Of a stretch of 64,000 nucleotides of DNA, positions 39,987 to 43,427 are shown in pieces. The translations under genes were made by a program, and so were the position numbers. Position 1 is the stretch's first letter, and every line of letters begins with the position of its first letter. Origin of the DNA: Pirellula sp. (GTDB taxonomy: Bacteria > Planctomycetota > Planctomycetia > Pirellulales > PNKZ01); assembly GCA_013822735.1 (NCBI GenBank), contig PNKZ01000001.1, positions 372,001 through 436,000 of the forward strand, given 5' to 3'. The notes under the pieces were generated by a model. That model did no database searches and had not been told where the DNA came from. It saw only the letters and a program-made list of their open reading frames with translations.

Positions 39987-40002
39987 CGGCATGGTAAATG
40001 CT
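39987..40002 (+). promoter_or_regulatory. Candidate sigma-54 promoter of glgX
   Basis: CGGCAT-GGTAA-ATGCT fits GGCAY-N6-TGCW. The -12 element is 98 bp before the glgX ATG. It is weaker than the CGGCACG copies. Confidence 0.35.
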
Positions 40003-40099
40003 AAACCATCCGCCACATCGATACCGGCGAGTTCGGAACTCGCCCGACGCTAGAGAGCGCGCACCTACGCAAAGCGAGCAACTTCCGAGATCAACCACC

Positions 40100-42451
<2,352 letters not shown>

Positions 42452-42633
42452 GTTCTGCTCGACCCACCCTACGAGCCGGCCAAAAGTTGCCTTGAATTCG
42501 TCGACTACCGCCTCTACGTTGCAGGGTGGTTGTTTGACAATTGGAGCGCCAACGCCGCAAGAGGATCGTATGACCGCGATCGGGCCTTGGCGATTTGGCG
42601 TAAGTTGGGTTTCGCCCGACTGCGGTCGATGGG

Positions 42634-42770
42634 ACTTACGTCCACGACGTCCGTCGCCCGTGCGCAGATAATCGGTAGCTATCTGCGCACATGTCCAAAA
42701 ACGGGGTGGGGGGCTGCGCAGATAACTCCAAGTTATGTGCGCAGGGCGGAATTCGGGAATCGACGTAAGT
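42634..42770. repeat. REPIN/MITE-like element with two related hairpins
   Basis: Outer 9-bp inverted repeats ACTTACGTC (42634-42642) and GACGTAAGT (42762-42770) enclose two hairpins. The first has perfect 11-bp arms GTGCGCAGATA (42660-42670) and TATCTGCGCAC (42680-42690). The second has 13-bp arms, 12 paired (42715-42727 and 42731-42743). All four arms share TGCGCA-G/C-ATA. No coding capacity. Confidence 0.5.
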
Positions 42771-42837
42771 GCTCGCAGCGGCGACGATCGGCGCGCCGAA
42801 TTACGTCGAGCGGCCGCACGGAAAACGTGCGCGCAAC

Positions 42838-42870
42838 AAAAAACGGCGAACGGTTTTGGCCGTTCGCCGT
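42838..42870 (-). terminator. Intrinsic terminator of the ferritin-like gene
   Basis: Perfect 11-bp arms (ACGGCGAACGG 42843-42853, CCGTTCGCCGT 42860-42870) with a 6-nt loop. On the minus strand the stem is followed by T6 (42843-42838), 36 bp beyond the stop codon. Confidence 0.85.
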
Positions 42871-42905
42871 GCGTCAGTCAGATCGTTCTCGCGTCGTCCG
42901 GAGTG

Positions 42906-43427
42906 CTAGTCGTTGTTGTGCGGCACGTCGATCCCGAGGGCCGTGGCAAGTTCGATCTGATGGTCCTGCTCTTCGACGAGAATCGAGCGGATGTGTTCTG
43001 CCATCGCATACTCGCCGATCGCTTCGCATTGACGAACGCGCGTGCGGTAGGCTGCGATGGTCGTCGTTTCGTTGTCGAGGTCGAATTTTAGCATGTCCTT
43101 CGCCTTGTCCGAGGTTTTCACCGGCATAGGCTCCGTGGCAGGTTGGCCTCCGAGGTAGTCGATTTGCTTCGAGATGATCAGCGCGTGCTTGAGCTCCTCG
43201 CCCGCGTGCTTTTCGAGCTCCGCGGCGACCTTCATGTACTCGGCTCCCTTGATTACTTGCGAGTACACGACATAGGCGATGACCGCTTGGTATTCGCGAC
43301 GGAGATCTTCGTTCAGCAGATCAATGAGTTCTTCGCGCGTGACGTGAAAGTCTCCATTAACCTTCTTCGTAGCTTCGCCGTTGGGCTCGGGGGCGGGGAT
43401 CTTCTTTTCAGTCGTGGGAGCGGGCAT
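42906..43427 (-). CDS. Ferritin-like/bacterioferritin-type protein
   Basis: 173 residues. A 27-residue polar N-terminal tail is followed by a four-helix ferritin-like domain (ELIDLLNEDLRREYQAVIAY, HAGEELKHALIISKQIDYLGG, DLDNETTTIAAYRTRVRQCE, IRSILVEEQDHQIEL). It has two E-x-x-H motifs (EELKH, EEQDH) and helix-1 and helix-3 Glu residues, so a di-iron site looks complete. Iron storage or peroxide protection is likely. A sigma-54-like site lies 59 bp upstream and a strong terminator follows. Confidence 0.88.
   Translation of the reverse strand: MPAPTTEKKIPAPEPNGEATKKVNGDFHVTREELIDLLNEDLRREYQAVIAYVVYSQVIKGAEYMKVAAELEKHAGEELKHALIISKQIDYLGGQPATEPMPVKTSDKAKDMLKFDLDNETTTIAAYRTRVRQCEAIGEYAMAEHIRSILVEEQDHQIELATALGIDVPHNND

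Follow-up and report, generated by a model that had tools for sequence, protein, structure and literature searches.

What is the palindromic sequence that lies between a glgX-like and a ferritin-like gene in this Pirellula genome, and is it a repeat served by a RAYT-type transposase? The window, the 64,000-nucleotide stretch analyzed here, carries the sequence between a glgX-like gene on its left (39998-42451) and a ferritin-like gene on the opposite strand on its right (42906-43427), both named from their translations. A preliminary description had recognized two hairpins enclosed by 9-bp terminal inverted repeats, without an open reading frame. Both hairpins and the perfect 9-bp inverted pair (42634-42642 and 42762-42770) are present, and no gene was called across the element. 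The length of 137 bp given for it holds for the inner part but not for the whole. The 9-bp repeats belong to the inner members of a pair of end motifs at both ends, and decayed outer copies of these motifs each lie 28 bp from their inner partner, so that the element measures 215 bp. It is made up of two TGCGCAGATA-type palindromes flanked by four copies of TCGACGTAAGT/ACTTACGTCGA, as follows.

42595-42809, minus strand: whole element, 215 bp; the strand given is the one whose core sequence is GCCCCCCACCCCGTTTTTGGACATG when aligned to the other copies
42595-42605, plus strand: outer left end motif, decayed, TTGGCGTAAGT, two mismatches to TCGACGTAAGT
42634-42644, plus strand: inner left end motif ACTTACGTCCA, one mismatch to ACTTACGTCGA
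42661-42689, no strand: palindrome 1, arms TGCGCAGATA and TATCTGCGCA, 9-base middle
42690-42714, minus strand: core separating the palindromes, of an alternative type present in 5 of 48 copies
42715-42743, no strand: palindrome 2, arms TGCGCAGATA and TATGTGCGCA, 9-base middle
42760-42770, plus strand: inner right end motif TCGACGTAAGT, exact
42799-42809, plus strand: outer right end motif, decayed, AATTACGTCGA, one mismatch

No Rfam family reached threshold for the element, the window stretch giving a sub-threshold match only, and a search of six loci returned only a tRNA, away from the element. The weak sub-threshold match, to BSnc120, covers 42800-42884 and thus the region of a terminator-like hairpin at 42841-42872, just past the element.

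The window genome (6.88 Mb in 38 contigs) contains the exact palindrome, with a gap of 3 to 15, 82 times, compared with none in a reversed-letter control, and these palindromes form 40 exact tandem pairs. Using blastn and relaxed matching, 48 distinct element sequences were collected from about 50 places, which amounts to one every 138 kb (49 rows became 48 when a duplicate register at locus L035 was dropped). The family is about 160-240 bp long. Its left side reads TCGACGTAAGT, 17 or 28 bases, ACTTACGTCGA, 15-17 bases (once 19) and the first palindrome; the core between the palindromes spans 22 bases (23 or 25-27 in six copies); and the right side continues from the second palindrome through 15-17 bases (once 19), TCGACGTAAGT, 17 or 28 bases and ACTTACGTCGA. 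The outer end motifs are often decayed across copies. The preliminary description had proposed a genome-wide search for such pairs and had named a lack of other copies as evidence against it; the search found many. Its claim of a mobilized, non-autonomous repeat therefore stands as far as a dispersed, non-coding, compound palindromic sequence in many copies is concerned, but not in the RAYT link, which is discussed below.

A sister subfamily with the core CTTGTTGGTAAGCGCTCCGACGCGCAC occupies about 34 places in the same genome, one of them the end of contig C37. Copies were fetched from 22 of the 25 loci L249-L273, having been chosen by this core of 27 bp; 21 of the 22 have it in identical form, and the surrounding spacers vary. 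A resemblance to a tRNA D-arm was considered for the core.

Among 396 genomes of the order, the exact end-motif pair occurs in three, all in the genus of the window genome; the congener G002 is without it. Searches for the exact palindrome in 39 further genomes of the order and in viral contigs gave no match, and a general genome-contig database gave four single matches in unrelated taxa, about as many as we estimate for chance. Blastn searches with the consensus in G002 and G004-G006 returned scraps only, with E values above 0.05. The related genome G001 holds 65 exact end-motif pairs, in copies that have the ends in common with the window genome and that carry different cores and different palindromes (TGCG followed by TACT, CACT, TGCA and others). 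The element thus belongs to a genuine genus-specific repeat family with an unusual, strict geometry. One G001 copy (L117, on C176) is a deletion form with one palindrome unit fewer, its ends 119 rather than 171 bp apart. A copy in the window genome (L056, C4:108657) has an extra TTATCTGCGCA arm about 20 bp upstream of palindrome 1, a third half-site that resembles the extra half-site of G001 copies.

In G003, the orthologous gap between glgX and ferritin is an intergenic stretch of about 80 bp from which the element is absent. This assembly is listed with 8% contamination, and the copies found in it may derive from a contaminating G001-like strain. The genes on its contig C117, which carries a copy (L112), are 99.7-100% identical to G001 proteins, compared with about 87% at another locus, and C117 is probably a stray contig.

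The end motifs are spaced with unusual precision. When gaps of 3 to 70 bp and at most one mismatch per motif were allowed, 114 pairs were obtained (37 from the window genome and 77 from G001/G003); 111 of them have a spacing of precisely 17 or 28 bp, and the remaining three deviate by one base. Both pairs of the window copy have the 28-bp spacing, and none of the 80 elements scored at both ends mixes the two. Since 17 and 28 differ by 11 bp, about one helical turn, we infer from the sequences that the end motifs are sites for proteins lying along the same face of the double helix and that like ends pair. The absence of mixing may also reflect two old lineages, one for each spacing.

Sequence constraint is distributed unevenly along the element. 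Mean pairwise identity is 97.6-97.9% in the arms of the 48 copies, which were gathered mainly by arm-based queries, 95-96% in the inner end motifs and 93% in the 22-bp core. It falls to 58-69% in the palindrome middles, 36-58% in the spacers and 32-34% in the outer loops, where composition predicts 25-35%. In a nearest-neighbor test on 45 copies (3 of the 48 were dropped), 13 copies whose nearest relative matches fewer than 60% of their spacer bases had arms only about 0.5 of 40 bases off the consensus. Furthermore, 12 end-motif pairs found without use of the arms all lie in copies with at most two arm mismatches. Because the arms are conserved both in spacer-diverged copies and in copies found without them, the comparison points to selection on the arms, whether at their present positions or through ongoing use when copies move. 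In G001, the two arms of a palindrome match each other in 60 of 110 palindromes, compared with an average of 20 in shuffles, and GT and AC mismatches number 14 and 10, with no GT excess.

The copies lie mostly between genes. Of the 48, 14 are in convergent and 21 in tandem gaps, 4 overlap called open reading frames and 7 are at locus edges; only 2 lie between divergent genes, which speaks against a promoter or operator reading. As background, convergent gaps make up 1,141 of the 13,406 intergenic bases of the window. Relative to tandem genes, 14 of 21 copies are in the opposite orientation by hand count, which is not significant. Many G001 copies have one unique flank and other hairpin repeats on the other flank; the locator used in this flank survey, which required a strict spacing of 28, missed two loci (L143 and L150). 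Contig ends fall at elements 11 times in the window genome, compared with 1.1 expected. At the starts of C4, C14 and C31 and the end of C18 (L036, L039, L029 and L031), the break is just outside the element, and these four share a CCGATACCTTGATC-like flank, as if one long repeat adjoined each.

At the positions of elements, gene order is usually broken between the window genome and G001. Codon scores were used to call genes around 50 loci of the window genome and 57 of G001, and the test set was restricted to gene ends whose ortholog lies in the sampled G001 loci. Ends without an element retain their neighboring gene in 60 of 72 cases, ends with one in 4 of 20. These 20 comprise 8 ends where both genomes have an element (2 kept; one interval is counted from either side), 11 where only G001 has one (2 kept) and 1 where only the window genome does (not kept). 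Counted as intervals of the window genome, the figures are 36 of 48 without and 2 of 18 with an element. Control gaps of at least 200 bp kept the neighbor in 17 of 22 cases, and controls limited to 3′ ends and to gaps no shorter than 100 bp kept it in 9 of 12, compared with 4 of 20 at elements (P = 0.0035); against the class with an element in both genomes, the matched controls gave a P value of 0.065.

Some positions are shared. Eight of nine gene ends facing an element in the window genome face one in G001 too, a figure that presupposes that the gene lies in the G001 loci, which were themselves chosen around elements, compared with 11 of 83 control ends; in matched 3′ ends the control is 5 of 17 (P = 0.011). 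Starting from G001 instead, 12 of 56 elements lie beside a gene end that in the window genome, too, faces an element within 700 bp, so that most G001 elements either do not share a gene end or cannot be seen to do so. Three G001 elements are informative on both sides: L121 and L233 join genes that flank two different elements in the window genome, and the third (L201/L145) keeps both neighbors. The breaks may be caused by fragile or repeat-rich gaps or by draft assembly; G001 is a draft of 570 contigs, and chimeric joins at repeats are therefore possible.

An exchange confined to the interior is suggested by one pair of copies. Over 2.4 kb, L223 from G001 matches L112 from the G003 contig at 91% identity, and the element occupies the same base position in both. 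Their outer modules are nearly identical, whereas the arms, TGCG(T/C)ACT in L223 and TGCGTGCAA in L112, differ as a set together with the extra half-site, and the interior of L112 resembles the other interior class found in G001. We read this pair as a replacement of the interior by recombination between copies.

The reading we favor, and to which we give about an even chance of being right, is that of a non-autonomous compound palindromic family that is spread in trans by a transposase or recombinase and whose copies act as recombination breakpoints. At each end, the two 11-bp motifs, 17 or 28 bp apart, could seat two protein units on one face of the helix, with both ends of an element using the same spacing. 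The transposase or recombinase would bind and pair the two ends, thereby spreading the family, and the palindromes would offer a further protein site. Once fixed, copies would recombine with one another, by general or site-specific recombination, leading to interior replacement and chromosome rearrangement. Recombination between fixed copies is suggested because the copies are mostly intergenic, some of their positions are shared with the congener and gene order is usually broken there.

An unlikely alternative, though several observations suit it, is that the host co-opted an ancient repeat, kept at intervals of about 140 kb, as sites for a chromosome-organizing or segregation protein. Over-dispersion along contigs is seen for the type-A copies (P = 0.002), though not for the sister subfamily by itself (P = 0.44 over 12 gaps); some positions are common to G001, and the arms are conserved despite diverged spacers, including in the 13 copies without a close relative. 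However, the end-motif pair occurs in just 3 of 396 genomes and is absent from G002, whereas sites with a housekeeping role should be more widespread; the arms also differ between G001 and the window genome, and synteny breaks at the copies.

Rather unlikely, in our judgment, is a dispersed network of recombination sites, in which a genus-specific recombinase would use the matched, helically phased ends to pair two elements and would exchange strands at the palindromes. Chromosome segments would then be reshuffled with left flanks mostly staying left and right flanks right, and interiors would be replaced as a unit, so that new palindrome types could spread through the copies of a species.

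The preliminary description had instead proposed a REPIN mobilized by a RAYT (Y1) transposase, which would act on single-stranded hairpins. We now regard this as improbable, although the palindromes are paired, no target-site duplication was found at the borders of 40 G001/G003 copies (no matching diagonal) and Y1 genes are present in the genome. None of the eight Y1_Tnp loci of the window genome carries the motifs of the element: within about 1.5 kb on either side there is no end motif at up to one mismatch and no exact palindrome arm. Four Y1 loci of G001 have scattered, inexact end-motif matches without a matched pair. The Y1 gene flanked by the same hairpins that had been proposed as a check was not found at these loci. 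One Y1 gene (L066, C9:188361) is instead flanked on both sides by GTAG-tagged hairpins, GTAGTCCGCCGCTCCGCGGCGGA, and is a typical REP/RAYT pair, separate from the family of the window element. GTAG-tagged hairpins do occur within 200 bp of 14 of the 48 copies, compared with 0 of 400 control stretches, but these are separate hairpins, and GTAG is absent from the hairpin foot in the element copies themselves. The one-turn spacing and the lack of a GT excess also disfavor a folded single strand. As the Y1 loci lack its motifs, the element is REPIN-like in layout, but its membership in a RAYT system is not supported. No autonomous copy or candidate enzyme was found in the loci read, nor any partner with the same ends among the matches listed, which cover about 50 of the 65 G001 pairs.

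A transcribed RNA element or terminator, with hairpins at mRNA 3′ ends, is very unlikely: the single-stranded DNA fold of the window stretch is strong (z = -6.2, with 0 of 200 shuffles as good) and convergent and tandem settings prevail over divergent ones, but the stem sequence itself is fixed in the window genome while the loops vary, there is no GT bias, no Rfam family was reached at threshold and a fixed one-turn spacing has no RNA reason.

MITEs are gene-less, dispersed elements with terminal inverted repeats, and the non-autonomous family favored above has these features in common with them; it differs in being without target duplication or a visible autonomous partner and in having interior palindromes as its most conserved part. 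The 10-bp arms with an 8-9-base middle resemble tyrosine-recombinase sites; the core sites of such recombinases and integron attC sites were both considered as possible likenesses. Titles and abstract openings of the literature on REP, RAYT and TIRYT systems, intergenic and palindromic repeats, MITEs and Planctomycetes describe no such element. According to PMC3733652, REPs and REPINs are likewise short inverted-pair palindromes that are intergenic, dispersed and without target duplication; the element differs from them in lacking the GTAG tag and a flanked RAYT gene, in its longer, nested layout and in its four end motifs at fixed one-turn spacings. The terminal repeats of TIRYT transposases, as presented there, are also moderately abundant and in part self-complementary, but no tyrosine transposase is flanked by element ends in the loci examined. 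The same paper describes CGTC-tagged REPs with stems of 8-9 bp, loops of 4-5 bases and an unpaired CGTC end. These too are without a known dedicated transposase, and CGTC occurs inside the end motif of the element; its anatomy, however, does not fit, with 10-bp arms, 8-9-base middles and an end motif that pairs over 17 or 28 bases.

Were it no more than an ordinary mobile repeat, the family would still clearly show conserved spacing of its end motifs around unconserved sequence, along with end modules common to two species whose palindromes differ. If the fixed copies are recombination sites, changes in gene order within a bacterial genus would be linked to short sites distributed over the whole chromosome, and interior class, end spacing and flanking genes would provide a readable record that makes exchanges traceable.
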